From Pseudomonas sp. 31-12 (GTDB taxonomy: Bacteria; Pseudomonadota; Gammaproteobacteria; Pseudomonadales; Pseudomonadaceae): a stretch of DNA of 64,000 nt. Location: the NCBI RefSeq assembly GCF_003151075.1, contig NZ_CP029482.1:5518001-5582000 (forward strand), written 5' to 3'. Positions 5,502 through 49,086 of the stretch are shown here, piece after piece (the first letter of the stretch is position 1; each line of letters starts with the position of its first letter). The translations under genes were made by a program, and so were the position numbers. The notes beneath the pieces were generated by a model that worked only from the letters and a program-made list of their open reading frames with translations, did no database searches and was not told the DNA's origin.

Positions 5502-5599
5502 CAAATGTGGGAGCGGGCTTGCTCGCGAAGGCGATGTGTCAGACAACATTGATGTCGACTGACACTCCCTCTTCGCGAGCAAGCCCGCTCCCACATTTG
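5502..5599. repeat. REPIN-like inverted repeat, family A
   Basis: Two inverted arms of 28-29 bases begin CAAATGTGGGAGCGGGCTTG and surround about 40 bases of less conserved spacer. The ends and arrangement match the elements at 26645, 32169 and, more distantly, 10129. Confidence 0.85.
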
Positions 5600-5622
5600 A
5601 TCGCGGTGAACCTGCGAGCAAT

Positions 5623-5658
5623 AAAAAACCCCGCCGGCTCATCGCCGGCGGGGTTTTT
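5623..5658. terminator. Terminator after groEL (bidirectional)
   Basis: A perfect 10-bp stem CCCCGCCGGC around TCATC, with A-run and T-run flanks. It ends groEL reading left and may also stop readthrough from the PAP2 gene. Confidence 0.9.
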
Positions 5659-5678
5659 ATGTACGGGGTAAGGCTGGC

Positions 5679-7334
<1,656 letters not shown>

Positions 7335-39051: not shown

Positions 39052-39072
39052 TAGCAAAACCCGCTTGAACGA

Positions 39073-39106
39073 AAGCCCCTGAATCTCACGATTCAGGGGC
39101 TTTTTT
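39073..39106. terminator. Terminator between glpD and the LysR gene
   Basis: AAGCCCCTGAATC with its exact inverse around a 3-4 base loop and six T residues, in a convergent gap. Confidence 0.92.
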
Positions 39107-39114
39107 GCAGGGGC

Positions 39115-40017
39115 TCATTGCGCCAGATGCAGCAGCAGGAAATCAATGAACGCCCTCGATTTGTGGGGCAGATGCGGGCTGTTGGGGAACACCACGCTGA
39201 CGGACTGCAAGGGCAGCGAATAGTCGGGCAACAGACGGATCAGCCGCTCGCTGGCGATGTCATCCTTGACCACCCACGCGGGCAGCACCGAAACACCCAG
39301 CGACGACAACGTCATGGAGCGGATGGCCGTGGATGAGTTGGATTCATACTGATTGATCCCGTTGATCTCGACAGTCCCCAATTGTGGATGGCGCAACGTC
39401 CACTGGGTCGGTGCCTGCAAGTTGCTGTTGGCAATCCACGGCAGCGAATTCAGGTCCTGAGGATTTTGCACCGGGTGACGCGCAAGAAACGCCTCGGTAG
39501 CCACCAGGACAATTTCATAATCCGCCAGTTTACGGCTCTTGAATGCCGAGTCCGCCAAGTTGCCCAAACGGATAACCAGGTCTAACTTCTCCGCCACCAG
39601 GTCATTGAGTGACGAGTTAAAGTTATAACAGAGTTTTATCTCCGGGTAGCGCTCTATGAATTGCGGAATCAACGGCAGAATATACGCCTCACCGTACTCA
39701 CTGGTGGAACTGAAGCGCAACTTCCCGGAAACTCGGTTATGCCCTTTTAATACATTATCAAAGGCGTTATCGATGTCCGCGACAATACCTTTGAACTCTT
39801 CATAAAAGTCCTGACCGATTTCGGTGAGGGATATATTTCGGGTATTTCTAATCAACAGCGTCGCTGACAGTACGTCCTCCAGCGCCTTGACATGCAGGCT
39901 GGCCATGGCTTTGCTGATGCTCAGGTAATTGGCCGCCTTGGTGTAAGAACCAAAATCGACCACCGCCAGAAAAGTCTGGACCCGATTAAGATGGGTGTGC
40001 ATAGCAATATGGCTCAC
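39115..40017 (-). CDS. LysR-family regulator of the aromatic amino acid operon
   Basis: A 300-residue LysR regulator. The N-terminal winged helix-turn-helix (about 10-65) is FLAVVDFGSYTKAANYLSIS, and the rest is the co-inducer domain. The start is probably GTG 40017 (AGGA 7 bases upstream), with ATG 40002 possible. It is divergent from the eight-gene operon starting at 40108 across a 90-base gap, the standard layout for a LysR controlling its neighbour. The inducer is likely an aromatic amino acid or its arylacetate product, by context only. Confidence 0.88.
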   Translation of the reverse strand: MSHIAMHTHLNRVQTFLAVVDFGSYTKAANYLSISKAMASLHVKALEDVLSATLLIRNTRNISLTEIGQDFYEEFKGIVADIDNAFDNVLKGHNRVSGKLRFSSTSEYGEAYILPLIPQFIERYPEIKLCYNFNSSLNDLVAEKLDLVIRLGNLADSAFKSRKLADYEIVLVATEAFLARHPVQNPQDLNSLPWIANSNLQAPTQWTLRHPQLGTVEINGINQYESNSSTAIRSMTLSSLGVSVLPAWVVKDDIASERLIRLLPDYSLPLQSVSVVFPNSPHLPHKSRAFIDFLLLHLAQ

Positions 40018-40029
40018 TGTTAAATCCTG

Positions 40030-40044
40030 TCAAACATTGTTTCA
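40030..40044. promoter_or_regulatory. Possible LysR operator
   Basis: TCAAACATTGTTTCA is a nearly symmetric 15-base site in the divergent LysR/MFS gap. It is the best palindrome there, but its binding protein is only presumed. Confidence 0.35.
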
Positions 40045-40107
40045 AGGATAGTCGTATCGACAGCTCAAGTCCACCGCCCCTATGCTTTGCGGCAAAGGGG
40101 AAACACC

Positions 40108-41475
40108 ATGACCTATCGCTACAAAGTTGCACTGATATTTCTCATCGGCTTTTTTATAGACTGCATTAACATCTTTATGTCAGCGGTCGCATTACCGAGT
40201 ATATCGGCGGCGCTGCACGTTAGTACTTCAGACGTTGCCTGGGTGGCCAATGCTTATATTCTGGGACTGACGCTGATCATTCCGGTCAGCACCTGGTTGG
40301 CCGGTCGTTTTGGCAGCCGGGAAATCCTCACCGCCTCGATGCTCGTGTTCACAGGTTCCGTGTGGATGTGCGGGCTGGCCAACAGTTTCAACGAGCTGGT
40401 GATCTGGCGCTTCGTCCAGGGGATTGGCGGTGGCCTGTTGATTCCAGTCGGCCAGGCGCTGACGTTCAACCTGTTCAAGGGTGAGCAGCGGGCGAAAATA
40501 TCCACCTTGGTCATGGCCGTTGCCCTGATAGCGCCCGCCATTTCACCAACCATCGGCGGAGTCATCGTCGACAGCAGCTCCTGGCGCTGGGTGTTCTACA
40601 GCAACATCCCGTTCTCGCTGATCGCGGCAGTGCTGTCCTGGTTCTGGATTAACGAAGCGCGGCCGACGAGTTTGCCCCGACCCGACATCAAGGGCTTGCT
40701 GCTGGTCAGCGCAGCACTCGGCAGCCTGCTGATGGGCATGTCGTTGTACGGCGGCGATGCTCCGGCATGGGTGGCCGCCCTCTTCGTCATGGCCGGCGTT
40801 GCTTTCGTGGTGCTGTACGGGCTGCATTACCGCACCTGCAAAAACCCGATCATTGAACTGAGCCTGCTCAAAAGCAAAAAACTCAGCACCTCCATCTTTA
40901 TCTATTACGCGATTCCCGGTGTGTTCACGGGGGTCAACTTGATGAGCATCTTCTTCCTGCAAAACACCCTGCACTTCAGCGCCCGCCTGACAGGGATGTT
41001 CATGATCCTCTACGCCATCGGCGCGTTCATCGCGATGCTGATCTGTGGCCGGGTCTACAACCGGATGGGCGCAAAGCGCCTGTTTGCCCTCGGCATGCTG
41101 TTGCACAGCGCCGGCATTGCCACCCTGCTACTGGTGAACAATCCCTCAGACCTTCTGGTGATTGTCATCGCCTACAGCTTGATGGGGATCGGCGGCGGCA
41201 TCGGAGCCAACACAGCACAAACCACGTCGTTGATGGATTTCGAGGGCAGTGACACGCACAAGGCCAGTGTCATCTGGAACATCAACCGACAGATGTCATT
41301 CAGCATCGGCGCCGCCCTCTTCCTGATGGTTTTCAACCTGCTCCTGAAGCATTTCGATACCACCCAGGCCTACCACGTGACGTTCGCCATTGCCGCGCTG
41401 GTGGGCCTGTTCCCACTCTTTCAACTGAGTCAGTTGAACACTCAAAAGGACTGTCATGCACAACAAAATAGTTGA
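40108..41475 (+). CDS. MFS transporter, DHA2/EmrB-like
   Basis: A 455-residue major facilitator with about 12-14 hydrophobic segments. The family signs include a motif A-like AGRFGSREILT, WRFVQGIGGGLLIPVGQAL (motif C-like region) and SWRWVFYSNIPF, typical of drug:proton antiporters of the DHA2 group. AGGGGA precedes the ATG. It is the first gene of the operon and overlaps the NTF2-like gene by 20 bases. Export of an oxygenated or acidic aromatic product is a reasonable inference; import of substrate is less likely for this subfamily. Confidence 0.88.
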   Translation: MTYRYKVALIFLIGFFIDCINIFMSAVALPSISAALHVSTSDVAWVANAYILGLTLIIPVSTWLAGRFGSREILTASMLVFTGSVWMCGLANSFNELVIWRFVQGIGGGLLIPVGQALTFNLFKGEQRAKISTLVMAVALIAPAISPTIGGVIVDSSSWRWVFYSNIPFSLIAAVLSWFWINEARPTSLPRPDIKGLLLVSAALGSLLMGMSLYGGDAPAWVAALFVMAGVAFVVLYGLHYRTCKNPIIELSLLKSKKLSTSIFIYYAIPGVFTGVNLMSIFFLQNTLHFSARLTGMFMILYAIGAFIAMLICGRVYNRMGAKRLFALGMLLHSAGIATLLLVNNPSDLLVIVIAYSLMGIGGGIGANTAQTTSLMDFEGSDTHKASVIWNINRQMSFSIGAALFLMVFNLLLKHFDTTQAYHVTFAIAALVGLFPLFQLSQLNTQKDCHAQQNS

Positions 41476-41866
41476 ACAGGCGCACCACAGCATTCATCAC
41501 GTGCACGAGTTGATCCACACCCTGTTCACCGACGCCAACGGTAAGGGGCAGGCCGCGCTCGAGCCGCTGATGTCGGCATTCGTCGAGCACTTCACCATGG
41601 TCACCACCTCGGCCGCCATCGTCAGCCGGGCGACGGTCGAACAGATGTTCAAGGGTGCAATCGGCGCCAAACCGGGCCTGGAAATCGTCATCAGCGACCT
41701 GCAGACGGTGTGGCAAGAAGGCGCCAGCGTGGCGATCCGCTACAAGGAAACCCATCGCCTGGACCAGCGCGAAAGCTCACGGATTTCGGTGGCGATCATT
41801 GGCCTGCATCACCACAACGCCCAATGGATCTACCTGCATGAAACGCCGCTAAGCCAGGAAAGCTGA
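41456..41866 (+). CDS. NTF2/SnoaL-like small protein
   Basis: A 136-residue protein that looks like an NTF2-fold (cone-shaped alpha+beta barrel). It has an N-terminal helix pair with several histidines (HHSIHHVHELIH), then AFVEHFTMVTTSAAIVSR and a C-terminal run of strands (VWQEGASVAIRYKETHRL, ARISVAII-like). Relatives are either ring-hydroxylating oxygenase beta subunits or small enzymes and binding proteins such as SnoaL. A genuine beta subunit is encoded separately at 44117, so this one is an extra. It may be an isomerase, cyclase or ligand-binding helper. Confidence 0.7.
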   Translation: MHNKIVEQAHHSIHHVHELIHTLFTDANGKGQAALEPLMSAFVEHFTMVTTSAAIVSRATVEQMFKGAIGAKPGLEIVISDLQTVWQEGASVAIRYKETHRLDQRESSRISVAIIGLHHHNAQWIYLHETPLSQES

Positions 41867-41873
41867 TTTTCGT

Positions 41874-42821
41874 ATGAACTACACAATCACTGATTGCCGA
41901 ATGCTCTCGGCCTCTATCAAAGAAATCACCGTCAGCCCGCAAACACCAGGGCATGCCGCGCTGGATGCGGGCGCGCATTTCAAATGGTTCATCCCCGAAC
42001 TGAATGAATGGCGGCACTACTCGGCGGTACAACTGGCGGACCGCATGACGGCGCAAGGCAGCGTCGTCTTTGCCATCCGGCTCACGGCCGACTCGGCCAG
42101 CAGTCGCTACATTCGTTCGCTGGCAATCAACGACACGGTGCAGCTCGATGGCCCGTTCAATACGTTCACCTACCCGCTCACTGAAGGCGTCGGCAGGGAC
42201 ATTGCGATTGCCGGCGGCATCGGCATTACGCCGCTGACCGGGATCCTTCATCACCTGACGTCATTGAATCGAAGCGCACACCTGCACTACTTCGCCAGGA
42301 ACGACGACGACGCGGCCTATGCCTTGCCCCTGCAGGCACTGTTGCAGGAACGCCTGCACTTGCACTTCTCCAATAAACCCGATGGCCGCCCCGCTGTCAG
42401 TCAGGTGCTCGCAGATCTGGCACCACACGACCGGCTCTACGTCTGCGGTCCGCAGGCGATGCTCAACGACGTGTTTTGCCATGCCGAGGACAGTGGCCTG
42501 GCGCGCGAGCGCATCCATTTTGAAATCTTCAACGTGGTTCGGGAAGACGATGCGTCGGCCTTTGTGATTGACGCCGTCGAGTCGGGTATCAGCGTCAACG
42601 TCAATCAAGACCAAACCTTGCTGGAGGCGCTGGAGGCGGCCGGCCTGGATCCGCTCTACGACTGCCGACGCGGTGAGTGCGGTGTCTGCGCGCTGGAGGT
42701 CCTTGAGGGTGAAGTCGACCATCGCGACTTCATCATGAGCGAAAAAGAAGCTGCCTGCAGCGCAAGGATTTATCCCTGCGTCTCCCGGGCCAAAAGCCAA
42801 CGCCTGAAGCTGGCGATCTAA
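41874..42821 (+). CDS. Phthalate-dioxygenase-type reductase (FMN, NAD(P)H, 2Fe-2S)
   Basis: A 315-residue electron-transfer protein for an oxygenase. The flavin-binding RHYS is at 47-50, the nucleotide-binding GGIGITP at 114-120, and YVCGP at 189-193. A C-terminal plant-type ferredoxin domain has C264-x4-C269-x2-C272-x29-C302. This domain order is that of class IA reductases such as phthalate dioxygenase reductase. It lies 13 bases before the oxygenase alpha gene, its likely partner. Confidence 0.92.
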   Translation: MNYTITDCRMLSASIKEITVSPQTPGHAALDAGAHFKWFIPELNEWRHYSAVQLADRMTAQGSVVFAIRLTADSASSRYIRSLAINDTVQLDGPFNTFTYPLTEGVGRDIAIAGGIGITPLTGILHHLTSLNRSAHLHYFARNDDDAAYALPLQALLQERLHLHFSNKPDGRPAVSQVLADLAPHDRLYVCGPQAMLNDVFCHAEDSGLARERIHFEIFNVVREDDASAFVIDAVESGISVNVNQDQTLLEALEAAGLDPLYDCRRGECGVCALEVLEGEVDHRDFIMSEKEAACSARIYPCVSRAKSQRLKLAI

Positions 42822-42834
42822 CGAGGAACACCGT

Positions 42835-44139
42835 TTGGACAATTACTTCAACGGCAGAGAAGTGCATAAATCGCTCTACCTTGATCAACAGCTCTTCGAC
42901 CAGGAACAACACAGCGTCTTCGCCGCCAGCTGGTGTTACGTGGGGCACGACAGTCTGATCCCGCAGCCCGGCGACTTTTTCACCACCGACATTGCACAGC
43001 AACCCTTGGCAATGGTCCGGCAAAAAAATGGCGACATCGTTGTCCTGCACAACCGCTGCCCGCACAAAGGCGTGAAAGTGCTGGCCGAGCCTCGCGGCAA
43101 TGTCGGTCGGTTTATCCGCTGCCCTTACCATGCGTGGACCTTCAAGACCGATGGCGAACTGCTGAGTATTCCGGTGAAAAAGGAATACGACGATTGCGAC
43201 CTCAGCGCGTGCTCCGCCCACAAAGGCATGCAAGCCGTCGCGGCGGTGGAGAACTATCGCGGTTTTGTATTTGTCCGCCTCCAGGCAGAAGGCATCGACT
43301 TCAACACCTTTTTTGGCGAGTCGTTATCGACGCTGGACAACATGGTGCTGCGCTCGCCCCTGGGCCAGTTGCGCGTCGTTGGCCAGCCGCTCCTGCACCG
43401 CCATCGCTGCAACTGGAAAATGGTGGTCGATAACCAGACCGACACCTGTCACCCGATGATTGCCCATGAGTCCTCGGCGGGCGAAGCGATTCGCTTGTGG
43501 AAGGAAACCAGCGACCAGAGCAGCCCTTCGCCCATGGCGGTCGAGCTATTTTCACCGTTCATGGCGTCCTACGAGTTCTTCGCCAACATGGGTATTCGCA
43601 TCTGGCCCAACGGCCACGGGCATACCGGCGTCAGCAACTCAATCCATAAAGCCTATGCCGATATTCCGGGTTATTGGGACTTGATGGTCCAGAGCTATGG
43701 CGAACGCCAGGCCACCGAGATTCTCGAAGACACCCGACACAACACCGTCTATTTCCCGAACCTGATGGTCAAGGGCCCGATCCAGACGTTGCGGGTGATC
43801 AAGCCGATCAGCGCTCAGGAGACGGTGGTCGAGTCGTGGATCTTTGAATTGGTGGGCGCCCCCATCCAGTTGCTGGAACGAACCGTCCAGTACAACAACC
43901 TGATCAATTCCCCTTGCTCGATGGTCGCCCACGACGATGTGGAAATGTACGAGCGGGCAACGGAGGGATTGCGCAGTGATTCCAACGAGTGGGTCAACGT
44001 GGCGCGACTCTTTGAATCGACCGAATCCTATGAGCGGACCCAGGTGGTTTCGGGCACCAGCGAAATGGCGATGCGCAATTTTTACAACAGCTGGCAGCAC
44101 TTGATGCGGGATAACCATGCAACTCGATCAGAACAATAA
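42835..44139 (+). CDS. Rieske ring-hydroxylating oxygenase, alpha subunit
   Basis: A 434-residue catalytic subunit. The Rieske 2Fe-2S ligands are C75-x-H77 and C96-x2-H99 (NRCPHKG, CPYHAW). The mononuclear iron site shows the bridging D203 and ligands H206 and H211 in DNQTDTCHPMIAHE. The start is TTG at 42835, supported by GAGGA 7 bases upstream and by the absence of any nearby ATG before the conserved fold. It overlaps the beta gene by 23 bases. Its neighbours suggest an indole- or phenyl-acetic acid or acetamide as substrate; sequence alone does not fix this. Confidence 0.93.
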   Translation: MDNYFNGREVHKSLYLDQQLFDQEQHSVFAASWCYVGHDSLIPQPGDFFTTDIAQQPLAMVRQKNGDIVVLHNRCPHKGVKVLAEPRGNVGRFIRCPYHAWTFKTDGELLSIPVKKEYDDCDLSACSAHKGMQAVAAVENYRGFVFVRLQAEGIDFNTFFGESLSTLDNMVLRSPLGQLRVVGQPLLHRHRCNWKMVVDNQTDTCHPMIAHESSAGEAIRLWKETSDQSSPSPMAVELFSPFMASYEFFANMGIRIWPNGHGHTGVSNSIHKAYADIPGYWDLMVQSYGERQATEILEDTRHNTVYFPNLMVKGPIQTLRVIKPISAQETVVESWIFELVGAPIQLLERTVQYNNLINSPCSMVAHDDVEMYERATEGLRSDSNEWVNVARLFESTESYERTQVVSGTSEMAMRNFYNSWQHLMRDNHATRSEQ

Positions 44140-44602
44140 ACACGCCATCGAACAGTTGATCGCCAGCGAAATCCAGCTACTGGACCAACAAGACTTCAGT
44201 GCCTGGCAACAACTGCTGACCCCCGACTACACCTACTGGATTCCGTTGCGACGAGAACAGACCAGCCCTCTTCATGAGTCCTCGCTGCTGTATGAAGACC
44301 GGTTTCTGACCACGCTGCGCATCAACCGATTGGCCAACGCGCGCAACTACTCGCAACAGCCCAAGAGTCGCAGTTTGCATATTGCCCAGTGTTCGTTGAT
44401 CCGTCTGGAAGACGACGAACTGGGCGCATCGAGTAGCACCAACATGCTCTATTGCGAAGCCCGAGGGGACAGCGAATGGCATTACCCGGTCACCGTCGAG
44501 CATCAACTGATTAACGTCGAAGGCAACTGGAAAATCCAAGGCAAAAAAGTACTTCTGCTCAATCCCTCCCGAGCGATTGAAAGCCTGCAGTTAATCATCT
44601 GA
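44117..44602 (+). CDS. Ring-hydroxylating oxygenase, beta subunit
   Basis: A 161-residue NTF2-fold small subunit. LLTPDYTYWIPLRRE, YEDRFLTTLRINRL and the C-terminal NVEGNWKIQGKKVLLLN are characteristic of beta subunits that form alpha3beta3 oxygenases. It overlaps the alpha gene and is followed 17 bases later by the flavin monooxygenase. Confidence 0.92.
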   Translation: MQLDQNNKHAIEQLIASEIQLLDQQDFSAWQQLLTPDYTYWIPLRREQTSPLHESSLLYEDRFLTTLRINRLANARNYSQQPKSRSLHIAQCSLIRLEDDELGASSSTNMLYCEARGDSEWHYPVTVEHQLINVEGNWKIQGKKVLLLNPSRAIESLQLII

Positions 44603-44619
44603 TTTATCGAGAATCACAC

Positions 44620-46329
44620 GTGAACGTTATGACTGCCGGCTTCGACGAAGCCACATTTCCCGGTTCTTTTCCGTATGTCGACCTGTTGTACGACTACGGC
44701 CAGTTTTTGCGCAATGCCAGTGATGCGATCGGTTACTTGCCACCCGAAGCGGCCAATAAACACATCGGCATTGTCGGCGCCGGGCTGACCGGGCTGGTCG
44801 CCGCCTACGAACTGCTCCGTGCCGGTGCCCAGCGAGTCACGCTGTTCGAGGCCGCCGAAGAACACTTGGGCGGGCGCTTGCTGACCCAGCGCTTTGACGA
44901 TGACCACCCGCAATTCATCGCCGAAATGGGCGCGATGCGCTTTCCTCCCAGCGAGGTCGGGTTGTTTCACTACCTGAACCGGTTTGGCATCGAAACCACT
45001 GAAGCGTTTCCCGACCCCGGTGTCGTGGACACCGAAATCCACTACCGCGGTGAGACTCATCACTGGGCGGCCATGCAGCCTCCACCTGCGATTTTCAGCA
45101 CGGTCCATCGGGGCTGGAGTGCGTTTTTGAAAGAGGGCGTGACCTTCGATGACGGCACCTGCCTGGCGCCACCGTTGTTACTGACCGAGTTACTCAAGCA
45201 ACACAACTACGCGGAAGTGCAGCCGGAATGGCAACGCTATCTGGATTACTTCGGCGACAGCTCGTTCTATTCGGCCATGGTGCAGATTTTCACCGGCAGC
45301 AACCCGCCCGGCGGACAACCGTGGCGCAAACCCGAAGACTTTCATCTATTCGGTTCACTGGGGATCGGCTCGGGCGGTTTCCAATCGGTATACCGCGCCT
45401 CCTTTACCGAGATTCTGCGGCTCGTGGTCAATGGCCTCGAAGTCAATCAACGGCTGGTGCCGATGGGCATCTCATCGCTGTCGGAGTTGATTGCCGATAC
45501 GTCATTCCATGGCATGCCCCTGCGCGACCGAATCTGCCGCACCCGCATCGAGTCCATCAACAAGGGCAATAACGGTGAAATCCTGCTGGCCGGCAGCAAT
45601 GGTGAAACCTATGCCTGCGACCGGGTGATCACCACGACGACCACCCGGGCGCTGCAAGTGAACATGAAGCTCACACAGAACCAGGCCTTCGTGAATCGTG
45701 ACGTGGCCCGGGCGATCAACGAAACCCACATGGTCGGTTCGTCCAAGCTGTTCATCCTGACCAAAGACAAGTTCTGGTTGAAACACGGGCTGCCACAGAA
45801 CATCCAGACAGACACCTTGGTGAAGGGCGTGTATTGCCTCGATTACGCACCGCAGGACCCTGAGTCCTGGGGCGTGGTATTGATCAGTTACACCTGGGAA
45901 GACGACTCCCACAAGATGGTTTCTATGACCGACAAAGTTCAACGCTGCTTGCGCCTTGTCGATGAACTGGCCATGAGCGCACCTGAGTTTGCCAGCCACC
46001 TTCTACCGCTCAATGGCAACTACCAGCGCTATGTCCTGGAGTATGACTGGCTGACCGACAAGCATTCGCTGGGCGCCTTCAAACTCAACTTTCCGGGTGA
46101 CGATATCTACTCGGAACGCTTGTTCTATCAATTCAAAACGGCCCTCGATCCACAGCAGGACACGGGGTTGTACCTCGCCGGGTGCGGCTGCTCTTTCACC
46201 GGTGGCTGGGCGGAAGGCGCCATTCAAACAGCACTCAACGGTGCCTGTGCGGTGATCAGCAGTCTGGGTGGCGACTTGATTGCCGACAATCCGCTGGACG
46301 GACTGCACGCTCAATACCGCTATTGCTGA
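44620..46329 (+). CDS. Tryptophan 2-monooxygenase-like flavoenzyme (IaaM family)
   Basis: A 569-residue flavin amine oxidase. Relatives convert tryptophan plus O2 to indole-3-acetamide and CO2. The FAD loop GAGLTG is at 53-58. EMGAMRFPP holds R107, equivalent to the substrate-carboxylate arginine of the P. savastanoi enzyme, and CGCSFTGGWAEGA holds W530, equivalent to its active-site tryptophan. The agreement with IaaM as I recall it extends along nearly the whole chain. Specificity for tryptophan over phenylalanine or tyrosine is not proven. The next gene encodes the amidase that completes the indoleacetamide route. Confidence 0.9.
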   Translation: MNVMTAGFDEATFPGSFPYVDLLYDYGQFLRNASDAIGYLPPEAANKHIGIVGAGLTGLVAAYELLRAGAQRVTLFEAAEEHLGGRLLTQRFDDDHPQFIAEMGAMRFPPSEVGLFHYLNRFGIETTEAFPDPGVVDTEIHYRGETHHWAAMQPPPAIFSTVHRGWSAFLKEGVTFDDGTCLAPPLLLTELLKQHNYAEVQPEWQRYLDYFGDSSFYSAMVQIFTGSNPPGGQPWRKPEDFHLFGSLGIGSGGFQSVYRASFTEILRLVVNGLEVNQRLVPMGISSLSELIADTSFHGMPLRDRICRTRIESINKGNNGEILLAGSNGETYACDRVITTTTTRALQVNMKLTQNQAFVNRDVARAINETHMVGSSKLFILTKDKFWLKHGLPQNIQTDTLVKGVYCLDYAPQDPESWGVVLISYTWEDDSHKMVSMTDKVQRCLRLVDELAMSAPEFASHLLPLNGNYQRYVLEYDWLTDKHSLGAFKLNFPGDDIYSERLFYQFKTALDPQQDTGLYLAGCGCSFTGGWAEGAIQTALNGACAVISSLGGDLIADNPLDGLHAQYRYC

Positions 46330-46371
46330 TGCCTTCATCGCAAGCCTCCTCTCTATCGCCGAGACCGTTTT

Positions 46372-47709
46372 ATGTACAGCCAGCTTTCAATTGAAGAACT
46401 CGTCAGCGGATTTCGCAGTGGTCGCCATTGCCTGGATGCCTGGCACCAATCCCTGCGCGATAAACAGTTTGATCATCAACACCTGAACAGCTTCATCACG
46501 TTCGACCCGACGGCGTTCGAGGTTGCCCTCGGGGCCGACCGGGAGGCGAGCCTGTATGGCATTCCCGTTTCCTTCAAGGACAACATCAATGTCAGCGGCA
46601 TGCCGACCACCGCAGGAACGCCGGGGCTCGCTGCTTACTACCCGTTGTCCGATGCCGGGATTGTCGAGCGTTTCAAGACGCTGGGCGCGAGGGTCGTTGG
46701 CAAGAACAACATGCATGAACTGTCGTTCGGGGTGACGTCGGCCAACCAAACTTACGGCGCCGTGGTCAACCCGGCTGACGAACGCTACAGCGCGGGCGGC
46801 AGCAGCGGTGGTTGTGCGGCAGCCGTCGCAGCCGGTCTTGTGCCCTGCGCCGTGGGTACCGACACCGGCGGGTCAGTGCGCATACCCGCGGCGTTCTGCG
46901 GGATCGTCGGGTTTCGCCCCACCACGGGGTGTTACCCGGTGGACGGCATCGTGCCCGTTTCCCAGACCAAGGACACGCCAGGGCTACTGACCCGCACACT
47001 GCAAGACTGTCAGTACATCCACCGTCACCTGACCGGGAACCACCCAGCGCCCCCGGACGACAACAGACCCCTACGGGTGGGCATACCGGAAAAATTCTTC
47101 TGGGCCGACCTCGACGAAAAAGTCCGACGCGACTGCTTCGCGGCTATCGAGGTGTTGGCAGATCGGGGCGTGGAGCTGGTTCCGGTCGATGACCTGTTGA
47201 TCGGGGAAATCAATGAGAGCATTCAATTCCCATTACCTATTTACGAGTTCTTTATCGACTTCCCGCGCTTCTTGATGAAAGAAGGCTGGGGCGACCAATT
47301 TTTGAGCATCCTGGCGCAGATCCGGGACCCGGGCATCAAGAAAATACTGACGGCGCAACTTGAGAGCCCGGCGATTTCCTACACCGACTATGTACAGGCA
47401 TTGATGAGCAAACTGCAGCTGAGTCGTGAATACAGCCGTCTGTTCAACGCCCATCAACTGGATGTGATTGCCTACCCCACCGTCAGCTGTACGGCACCGT
47501 TGCTCACGGAGTGCGAGGCAGAAAGCAACTTCGAGACCTTCGTGCGCAACACCGACCCGGCGAGCAACCTGGCGGCGCCCAGTGTCACCGTGCCGGTAGC
47601 GGAAAAACACTCGCTGCCGGTGGGGCTCTCGTTCGACGCGTTGCCCGGGCAGGACAGCTTGCTGCTGGAGAGATCCCGCCAATTATCCCGTTTGCTGGCC
47701 ATGCGTTAA
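46372..47709 (+). CDS. Indoleacetamide hydrolase-like amidase (IaaH family)
   Basis: A 445-residue amidase-signature enzyme with the full triad K69 (SFKDN), S144 (AGGSSGG) and S168 (GTDTGGS). The spacing between them is as in well-studied family members. [13 protein letters not shown] and [17 protein letters not shown] match IaaH of P. savastanoi closely from memory. It would hydrolyse the arylacetamide made by the upstream monooxygenase to the arylacetic acid (auxin, if the substrate is tryptophan) and ammonia. Confidence 0.9.
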
Positions 47710-47817
47710 CGCGCTGTCGGCGCCATTCACTGAATGGCGCTGATCCTTTCTGACGCGCGCCTGCAACCTGGCCCGCCGAAAGAACAGCCCTCTAATAACT
47801 CAAATGCAGGCCTTGCC

Positions 47818-49086
47818 ATGCGCAGCACTTCTACGTCCACTTCCGCTCCCTCCGTCGCACTCGAACGGTCGCCCTCGGTGCTCGGCGGCGCCATGATGAT
47901 CGGTGGCACCATCGTCGGTGCCGGCATGTTTTCGCTGCCGGTCGTCATGTCCGGCCTGTGGTTTTACGGCTCCGTCGCGGTCCTGTTGTTTGCCTGGTTC
48001 TGCACCTTGCATTCCGGCCTGATGATTCTTGAGGCCAACCTTAACTATCGTTCCGGTGCCAGTTTTTCAACGATCACCAAAGACCTGTTGGGTCGTCGCT
48101 GGAATGTGTTGAACGGCTTGAGCATCGTCTTTGTCCTGTACACGCTGACCTACGCCTACATCTCGGCCAGCGGTTCGGTGATTCATCACAGCGCCCAATC
48201 ATTGGGAGTGAATCTGTCGGCACGCGCCGGGGGCTTGTATTTCACCCTGACGGTCGCGCTCATCGTGTGGCTGAGCACGGCAGCGGTGAGCCGGGTGACC
48301 ACAGTGATCTTCGGTGCAAAGATCATCGCGTTCTTCCTGACCTTCGGCGGGCTGCTCGATCACGTGCAACCGGCGACACTGCTCAATCGAAACGCCACGG
48401 ATAGCCACTACCTTCCTTACCTGCTGATGACCCTGCCCTTCTGCCTGACCTCCTTCGGTTTTCACGGCAACGTTCCCAGCCTGATGAAACACTTCGGCAA
48501 AGACCCGCAGCGTATCCGTGCCTGCCTGGTCAGCGGCACCCTCATCGCGCTTGGGCTGTACGTTGTCTGGATGGTTTGCAGCATGGGCAACATTCCCCGG
48601 GACGGGTTCAAGGACATCGCTCAGCGTGGCGGCAATATCGACGTGCTGATCAGCGCGCTGGGGGCGATGCTCAACAGTGCGAAAATCGATGTATTCCTCA
48701 GCCTTTTTTCCAACTTCGCCGTCGCCTGCTCCTTTCTCGGCGTGTCCTTGGGGCTCTTCGATTATCTGGCCGATGTGCTGGGGTTTGACGACAGCCCGCG
48801 AGGTCGCCTGAAAACCGCAGCCACCACCTTCCTACCACCTATGCTCTGCGGGCTGTTGTGGCCAGAAGGGTTTATCCATGCCATCGGTTTCGCCGGTCTG
48901 GCGGCGACCCTCTGGGCCGTCATTACCCCGGCATTGCTGGCCAGCGCATCACGCAAGCGCTTTGGCAGCCCGCGGTATCGCGTCTGGGGAGGCCAGCCCA
49001 TGATTGCCCTGATATTGTTTTTCGGCGTGATCAGCGCGATTTCACATGTGCTGTTTTCATTGGATTTGTTGCCGGTGTGGCGCTAG
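47818..49086 (+). CDS. Aromatic amino acid permease, Mtr/TnaB/TyrP family
   Basis: A 422-residue transporter with about 11 membrane helices. The family start [20 protein letters not shown] and the [11 protein letters not shown] block are typical of tryptophan/tyrosine proton symporters. ATG 47818 is chosen (AGG upstream, 108 bases after the amidase); an open frame from 47734 is less likely. As the last gene of the operon it probably brings in the amino acid used by the monooxygenase. Confidence 0.9.

Follow-up and report, generated by a model that had tools for sequence, protein, structure and literature searches.

The described systems closest to the locus treated here make or break down the auxin indole-3-acetic acid (IAA). 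Both a Rieske oxygenase and an amidase are encoded in the iac auxin cluster. This cluster is degradative and ends in catechol (PMC9613470; publications are cited by PubMed Central number and for the parts of their text at hand). The presence of iaaM and iaaH in a genome is used as a marker of auxin production among plant-associated Pseudomonas (PMC8719888, PMC12513076); the two genes define the 'IAA 1' cluster in a study of the P. fluorescens group (PMC8719888) and are cited for IAA production by P. granadensis CT364 (PMC12513076). The oxygenase IadDE of the Variovorax iad system turns over IAA and, less well, 4-Cl-IAA, but not IBA or IPA (PMC10374108). The product of IadCDE is given as oxIAA (PMC10374108), while a preprint gives another C10H9NO3 compound: a 2,3-epoxide is proposed as its precursor, and hydration to C10H11NO4 would precede the step of the dehydrogenase IadJ (PMC12633357). 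Here we describe a locus of Pseudomonas sp. 31-12 in which iaaM- and iaaH-like genes stand in one row with iadCDE-like genes. It occupies positions 39115-49086 of the window, i.e. the whole 64,000-nucleotide stretch analysed, which belongs to a genome of 6.73 Mb in a single contig.

Based on gene identities, the substrate pocket and clade of the oxygenase, synteny and the pattern of gene loss, all read from sequence, we consider it fairly probable that the locus is a tryptophan-to-oxidised-auxin operon. In the proposed pathway, the permease would import tryptophan, IaaM would convert it to indole-3-acetamide and the IaaH-like amidase would convert the amide to IAA. The IadCDE-type reductase and oxygenase would then oxidise the indole ring of IAA, which would be an intermediate and not the main product. 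If the analogy with Variovorax holds, a C10H9NO3 compound is formed first. The iad genes leading to anthranilate are not in the operon, so the pathway probably ends at or near the oxidised indole-acetate, which would leave the cell through the MFS (major facilitator superfamily) transporter. Binding or processing of the oxidised product is a possible role of the NTF2-fold protein, and the LysR protein probably senses a pathway compound. We infer each of these reactions, together with co-transcription, the LysR ligand, the MFS cargo and the role of the NTF2-like protein. The features of the locus are as follows:

39115..40017, minus strand: divergent LysR-type regulator (Pfam PF03466, PF00126)
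40018..40107, no strand: divergent promoter region, a conserved block in the window and eight relatives
40108..41475, plus strand: MFS transporter, DHA2/EmrB-like, probable exporter (PF07690)
41456..41866, plus strand: NTF2-like protein (NTF2 fold from model)
41874..42821, plus strand: IadC-like flavin and [2Fe-2S] reductase (best solved match 7YLR)
42835..44139, plus strand: IadD-like Rieske oxygenase alpha subunit (best solved matches 9O71, 7YLS)
44117..44602, plus strand: IadE-like oxygenase beta subunit (best solved match 7YLS_A, also 9O71)
44620..46329, plus strand: IaaM, tryptophan 2-monooxygenase (best solved match 4IV9)
46372..47709, plus strand: IaaH-like amidase (best NCBIfam match NF005688)
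47734..49086, plus strand: tryptophan permease (NCBIfam NF007789)

The nine genes named in the initial annotation, a divergent lysR and a row of eight on the plus strand, are all present at these coordinates as full-length, intact open reading frames. From the MFS gene to the permease gene, the gaps on the plus strand are -20, 7, 13, -23, 17, 42 and 24 bases. The gene families first read are confirmed by Pfam and NCBIfam (LysR, MFS, Fer2/FAD/NAD reductase, Rieske with Ring_hydroxyl_A, Ring_hydroxyl_B, Amino_oxidase, Amidase and Trp_Tyr_perm) and, for the NTF2-like protein, by its modelled fold. The claim that the key residues are in place also holds for the metal ligands of the alpha subunit, the amidase motifs and the five IaaM positions discussed below. 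The suggested flow from amino acid to acetamide, acid and oxygenated product is supported at the level of sequence.

Among proteins of solved structure, the alpha subunit matches 9O71 and 7YLS with 490 bits (next 126), the reductase 7YLR with 189 bits (next 107) and the beta subunit 7YLS_A, and also 9O71, with 83.6 bits (next 44.3). By numbering, 7YLS is IadD, with 7 of 7 metal ligands on the published numbers. Neither 7YLR nor 7YLS appears as a code in the main text of PMC10374108; we infer that 7YLR, whose record reads ferredoxin with 330 amino acids, is IadC. All seven metal ligands (C85, H87, C106, H109, H216, H221 and D377) are identical in the alpha subunit of the operon. Nine IAA-pocket residues are reported for IadD (PMC10374108), eight of which are kept here (N210, H216, H221, F251, H311, K322, R329 and Y362). 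The exception, L211 changed to Q, is found likewise in Achromobacter, Bordetella and alphaproteobacterial rows of the alignment, and the iad-type rows with data that are at least 53% identical to the window share Q at position 211. Other Rieske alpha subunits of the same genome differ at four of the nine sites (L002, L003 and L005, two of them with an extra gap) or at two sites (L006). The set with the L006 subunit (L006/L061), a second full-length Rieske set of the genome, was set aside, given 37% alpha identity and its two pocket differences. It lies at 6904-10398 of L061 (about 4.497-4.500 Mb of the genome) as a reductase-alpha-beta set followed by genes for a short-chain dehydrogenase/reductase (SDR) and a dienelactone hydrolase.

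The tree of alpha subunits comprised 45 rows, after 14 of 59 aligned rows were dropped (duplicates, near-copies and the fragments L030, L028 and L001). The operon alphas from Pseudomonas, Photorhabdus, Xenorhabdus, Pantoea and Marinomonas group in a single clade (100/100), which is nested among iad-type rows (node 99/97); a long-branch warning applies to the outer rows. P0006, P0009 and P0011 were counted as operon-like without gene context, P0011 being nearly identical to the Pantoea wallisii sequence (L020), and P0014, also a row without gene context, falls inside the clade. The initial annotation had left the substrate wide and proposed a tree that included IacC. Nesting among iad-type rows points to IAA, in a tree computed without IacC. 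Since the oxygenase groups with IadDE, IAA is a likelier substrate than the amide, and tryptophan a likelier starting compound than phenylalanine. Identities of the operon alpha to the three Achromobacter/Bordetella rows compared are 58.9-59.7%, and Achromobacter is a described iad carrier (PMC9613470, PMC11630574). IAA degraders include Achromobacter and Sphingopyxis with 40-60% identity to IadD/IadE (PMC11630574). As Sphingopyxis degrades IAA at such identities, the distance of the operon alpha from IadD is compatible with IAA as substrate.

The enzymes that would supply IAA gave clear matches. IaaM scored 717.5 bits against 4IV9, the tryptophan 2-monooxygenase (TMO) of P. savastanoi, compared to 196 bits for the next structure, and is 57.0% identical to TMO over 549 columns. 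R98, F244, K365, W466 and F476 are identical to their TMO counterparts (5 of 5), positions which we take to be in the active site of the P. savastanoi enzyme. The amidase has the Lys and Ser motifs, and its top NCBIfam match is indoleacetamide hydrolase (NF005688) with 432 bits, the next family scoring 218, which is 214 bits lower. The permease passed the cut-off of 515 for tryptophan permease (NF007789) with 695.3 bits.

The initial annotation had also treated the genes as a unit, and synteny bears this out. The same nine-gene order was found in 11 of 11 Pseudomonas loci (L007-L017, part of a set of 24 loci of relatives), which argues against a chance arrangement. The closest nine-gene relative is that of P. 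frederiksbergensis AS1 (L007), with proteins 90-98% identical. Beyond Pseudomonas, nine-gene loci occur in Photorhabdus caribbeanensis (L018), P. noenieputensis (L028) and Pantoea wallisii (L020). The alpha gene of L028 (9983-11275) and the lysR (126-1012) and iaaM (5516-7250) genes of L020 look broken in the assemblies. The whole row is also present on two large plasmids of Pantoea (L144 and L145, P. agglomerans 33.1 and Pantoea sp. Nvir), so it is not confined to chromosomes; the MFS gene of L144 is absent from the gene table and was recovered by tblastn. In Xenorhabdus, the permease is not in the locus of X. szentirmaii (L021), and the locus of X. stockiae (L022) is without IaaH or permease. 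Both loci have an O-methyltransferase gene (PF00891) between the NTF2 and reductase genes (L021 7825-8796, L022 7895-8869), which suits a methylated, tailored metabolite. The tryptophan halogenase XszenFHal of X. szentirmaii (PMC6823310) was considered for this extra gene and rejected, as the insert is the O-methyltransferase. The Marinomonas spartinae locus (L019) consists of lysR, MFS, NTF2 and the reductase, alpha and beta genes (CDE) only. The 19 operon-type loci (L007-L022, L028, L144, L145) span Pseudomonadaceae and three further families.

Genus-wide counts, which include the genome of the window, were made at E 1e-100 for the alpha subunit and E 1e-60 for IaaM. Ten of 398 Pseudomonas genomes carry the alpha subunit and 12 of 396 carry IaaM; some of these genomes are also named loci, so the counts are not additive. 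All ten alpha genomes are among the twelve, with iaaM directly after the beta gene, which answers in the affirmative the earlier question of co-occurrence (10 of 10). The two remaining IaaM genomes (L056, L057) have IaaM-IaaH only, and their proteins start like the P. savastanoi enzyme, as judged by eye. In a class-wide draw, alpha-like proteins (E 1e-100) were found in 4 of 369 genomes, one being this genome and the others 40-49% identical.

In one respect the unit under one regulator that had been postulated is not supported, because lysR, MFS and NTF2 form a separable module that is commoner without the enzymes than with them. The best NCBIfam match of LysR is YafC (180.2 bits, below the cut-off of 470), and the MFS protein scored 225.4 bits with TIGR00711, narrowly below the cut-off of 230.2. 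The NTF2-like protein has no Pfam match; it has an NTF2 fold according to its structural model, and its relatives carry the name DUF4440. Its best match is a protein of unknown function, and no limonene-type epoxide hydrolase is among the matches listed. At E 1e-12, relatives of the NTF2-like protein were found in 58 of 396 Pseudomonas genomes, among them all ten alpha carriers. Contexts were obtained for 23 of the 48 NTF2-bearing genomes without alpha, three from a set of eight glpD-site stretches and 20 picked mostly from the better matches, the other 25 being mostly weaker. All 23 (L086, L087, L090, L124-L143) show lysR-MFS-NTF2 with lysR in the same position, two of them with an in-frame stop within the MFS match. 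Reductase remnants aside, no oxygenase, IaaM or IaaH was found in the 23 stretches, and at E 1e-60 IaaM is absent from all 23 genomes. PA1312-PA1314 of P. aeruginosa may be such a stand-alone module. In Xenorhabdus, 20 of 30 genomes have NTF2 relatives (12 at about 49% identity or more) and two of 30 have alpha; the eight contexts obtained from the best matches without alpha (L158-L165) are all lysR-MFS-NTF2 alone.

Nine of the 23 three-gene loci are near-copies of the window (NTF2 identity 90-95%), and their ends point to a loss of the six enzyme and permease genes (matches in three-gene stretches were taken at 28% identity or more). In six of them (L087, L090, L125, L126, L128, L129), the match to the window ends at 41892, after the first 19 bases of the reductase gene, and resumes at 49071-49081, in the last permease codons. 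L086 matches up to 41870 and again from 49082, L124 retains two reductase-gene pieces (to 41984, and 42247-42428), and the match of L127 ends at 41899 with a different right flank. As an insertion of the six genes would leave no reductase or permease pieces, these are read as losses, of which the near-copies suggest at least two and probably three. No clear piece of the reductase gene is discernible by eye in five three-gene loci that are more distant but occupy the same site (L131, L133, L135, L138, L139). Seven changes between the two states are counted on the MFS tree, at least four of them forced by strongly supported branches (quick method), and they may be gains or losses. The median dN/dS among the nine near-copies is 0.09 for lysR (35 pairs), 0.11 for MFS (36 pairs) and 0.15 for NTF2 (35 pairs), one of 36 pairs with dS of 0.02 or less having been dropped for lysR and one for NTF2. 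The three retained genes are under purifying selection in these nine close relatives. Retention after loss fits export or self-protection by former producers, as would be expected if kin make a bioactive product, and also a general efflux unit.

That second option, in which the three genes are a general efflux system for unrelated aromatics and the six others merely adjoin them, is unlikely but has a real chance of being correct. It draws on the numbers above, NTF2 relatives being found in 58 of 396 Pseudomonas genomes compared to alpha in 10 of 398, and on the eight Xenorhabdus contexts. However, the module lies upstream of CDE in 19 of 19 operon-type loci (with the O-methyltransferase between them in Xenorhabdus and a broken-looking lysR in L020), and the reductase remnants show that the close three-gene relatives derive from longer loci. 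Improbable, in our view, is a control of auxin levels, in which the IAA formed by IaaM and IaaH is a plant signal, the oxygenase is its off-switch and nothing new is exported. This would agree with P. chlororaphis, where O6 and 30-84 both have iaaM/iaaH and auxin was found in O6 only (a faulty IaaH or low expression being suggested for 30-84; PMC3390384), and with the reversal of auxin-caused root growth inhibition by iadCDE alone (PMC12633357). Yet one gene row would make and destroy the signal together, and such control needs neither a tryptophan permease and an MFS transporter, nor insect-associated carriers in Photorhabdus and Xenorhabdus, nor an O-methyltransferase.

The remaining alternatives concern the substrate. 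A different order, with the oxygenase working on indole-3-acetamide ahead of the amidase, or an optional amidase, we hold to be distinctly improbable. In its favour, X. stockiae has iaaM and CDE without a close IaaH, and its alpha subunit (L022 9983-11278) shows a further pocket substitution, F251 to L, unique among the operon alphas with full data. The operon alpha, however, retains H311, K322, R329 and Y362 of the IAA-binding enzyme, and IaaH is present in 15 of 16 IaaM-bearing loci (L007-L018, L020-L022, L028). A route from phenylalanine or another aromatic amino acid to an oxidised phenylacetate is very improbable. IaaM-type enzymes do accept phenylalanine, and the alpha subunit weakly resembles benzoate-type oxygenases (TIGR03229, 157.9 bits, cut-off 781), but the permease exceeds the tryptophan equivalog cut-off and the oxygenase falls within the indole-acetate lineage.

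Several results weigh against a tryptophan-to-oxidised-auxin operon. The amidase stays under the NF005688 cut-off of 532 and is therefore named IaaH-like only. X. stockiae has no IaaH above 37% identity, and the Marinomonas spartinae genome has no IaaM at E 1e-20; in these two species, too, the idea of a single unit is not supported, the latter having the oxygenase without iaaM/iaaH. The abundance of the module without pathway enzymes means that a pathway role of the MFS and NTF2 proteins is not required. The alpha subunit is 49.8% identical to 7YLS/IadD over 416 columns and its clade has a long stem (0.84), so its substrate or product may have shifted from that of IadD. Moreover, all nine pocket residues are also found in iad-type rows (L053-L055) whose identity to the window is only 40-49%; the pocket thus marks a lineage and by itself is no proof of the substrate. 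Finally, O6 accumulates auxin, and if its iaaMH genes are in the operon, oxidation would be incomplete or conditional. In the P. chlororaphis genome with locus L017, a single IaaM is close (82%) and located in the operon, the others being 31-36% identical, and NTF2 relatives are present in P. chlororaphis and P. granadensis. From this, the iaaMH genes of the published strains would sit in the operon as well. The parts at hand of PMC3390384, PMC8719888 and PMC12513076 do not mention an adjoining oxygenase around iaaM/iaaH.

A wider and tentative suggestion can be made, which we consider possible though doubtful. The loci may make a new family of small tryptophan-derived oxidised indole-acetates, also methylated in Xenorhabdus. 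An auxin-destroying oxygenase would have been recruited into an auxin-making operon, with LysR, MFS and NTF2 as sensor, pump and handling protein for self-protection, kept as immunity by many former producers. In that case, iaaM/iaaH in Pseudomonas outside the P. savastanoi type would mark a new metabolite instead of auxin. Independently of this, genes commonly taken to indicate auxin production may serve, in these soil and insect-associated bacteria, to make another compound for export. In 10 of the 12 IaaM-bearing Pseudomonas genomes, the gene row with iaaM also includes an auxin-type oxygenase, so the iaaM/iaaH marker may mislead for many carriers. An oxygenase beside iaaM/iaaH could explain carriers without detected auxin, and the former-producer pattern makes the biological activity of the product directly testable.

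The operon is flanked by glpD on one side and by an aatJ-type amino-acid transport set on the other (names assigned from the sequences). This site also houses it in seven of the 11 Pseudomonas relatives (L008-L014), and neither gene adjoins it in L007 and L015-L017. Eight glpD-site stretches comprise three with the module, four with aatJ adjoining glpD and one with neither. An inverted repeat between glpD and lysR (39072-39103), found also in L086, L087 and L090, is probably a terminator; promoter and terminator scans were not clearly above shuffled sequences. In the divergent region the promoter scan gave three sites compared to 4.0 expected from shuffles, i.e. no excess, and promoter-like sites lie at 40057-40086 (plus strand) and 40033-40006 (minus strand). 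The MFS reading frame as listed starts at TTG 40087, directly after the -10 hexamer of the former site, and ATG 40108 is invariant in the alignment of the window and eight relatives. A protein of 455 amino acids is therefore likelier than one of 462.

The claim that the unit is new to the literature has stood so far: iaaM/iaaH and iadCDE in one operon are not described among the matches listed (mainly open literature, titles and abstract starts), and these include no oxidised IAA product from Pseudomonas, Photorhabdus or Xenorhabdus. Compared to the known systems, the operon shares with Variovorax iadCDE (7YLS, 8H2T, 9O71, and 7YLR taken as IadC) the same three components, each with its closest solved match there, the metal ligands and eight of nine pocket residues. 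It differs in that its oxygenase genes lie beside IAA-making genes, lysR and MFS, whereas iad has MarR, uptake proteins and iadF-J. The iad-type locus L059 has MarR, CoA ligase, thiolase, ChsH2/SDR, cyclase and SDR genes beside the oxygenase, with parts of this set in L023 and L029 (part scans). By Pfam, none of the nine operon genes is a MarR, iadF-I or IadJ-type dehydrogenase gene, and the L029 thiolase has no match in this genome in a search without positive control. The operon was accordingly rejected as an iad degradation locus, the downstream iad genes not being in it. No IacA- or IacE-like gene is among the nine either (by Pfam, for these genes and not the genome), which separates the operon from iac, a comparison made without IacC. 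With the iaaM-iaaH route of the P. savastanoi type, to which L056 and L057 probably belong, it shares the adjoining IaaM and IaaH. The IaaM of these two is 56% and the IaaH 44-45% identical to the window, but their 16-kb stretches show no oxygenase, tryptophan permease or lysR-MFS-NTF2. The stand-alone lysR-MFS-NTF2 loci have the same three genes in the same arrangement, but no adjoining pathway enzymes. Taken together, the operon is a conserved and apparently undescribed combination of two known auxin modules with a separable efflux module.

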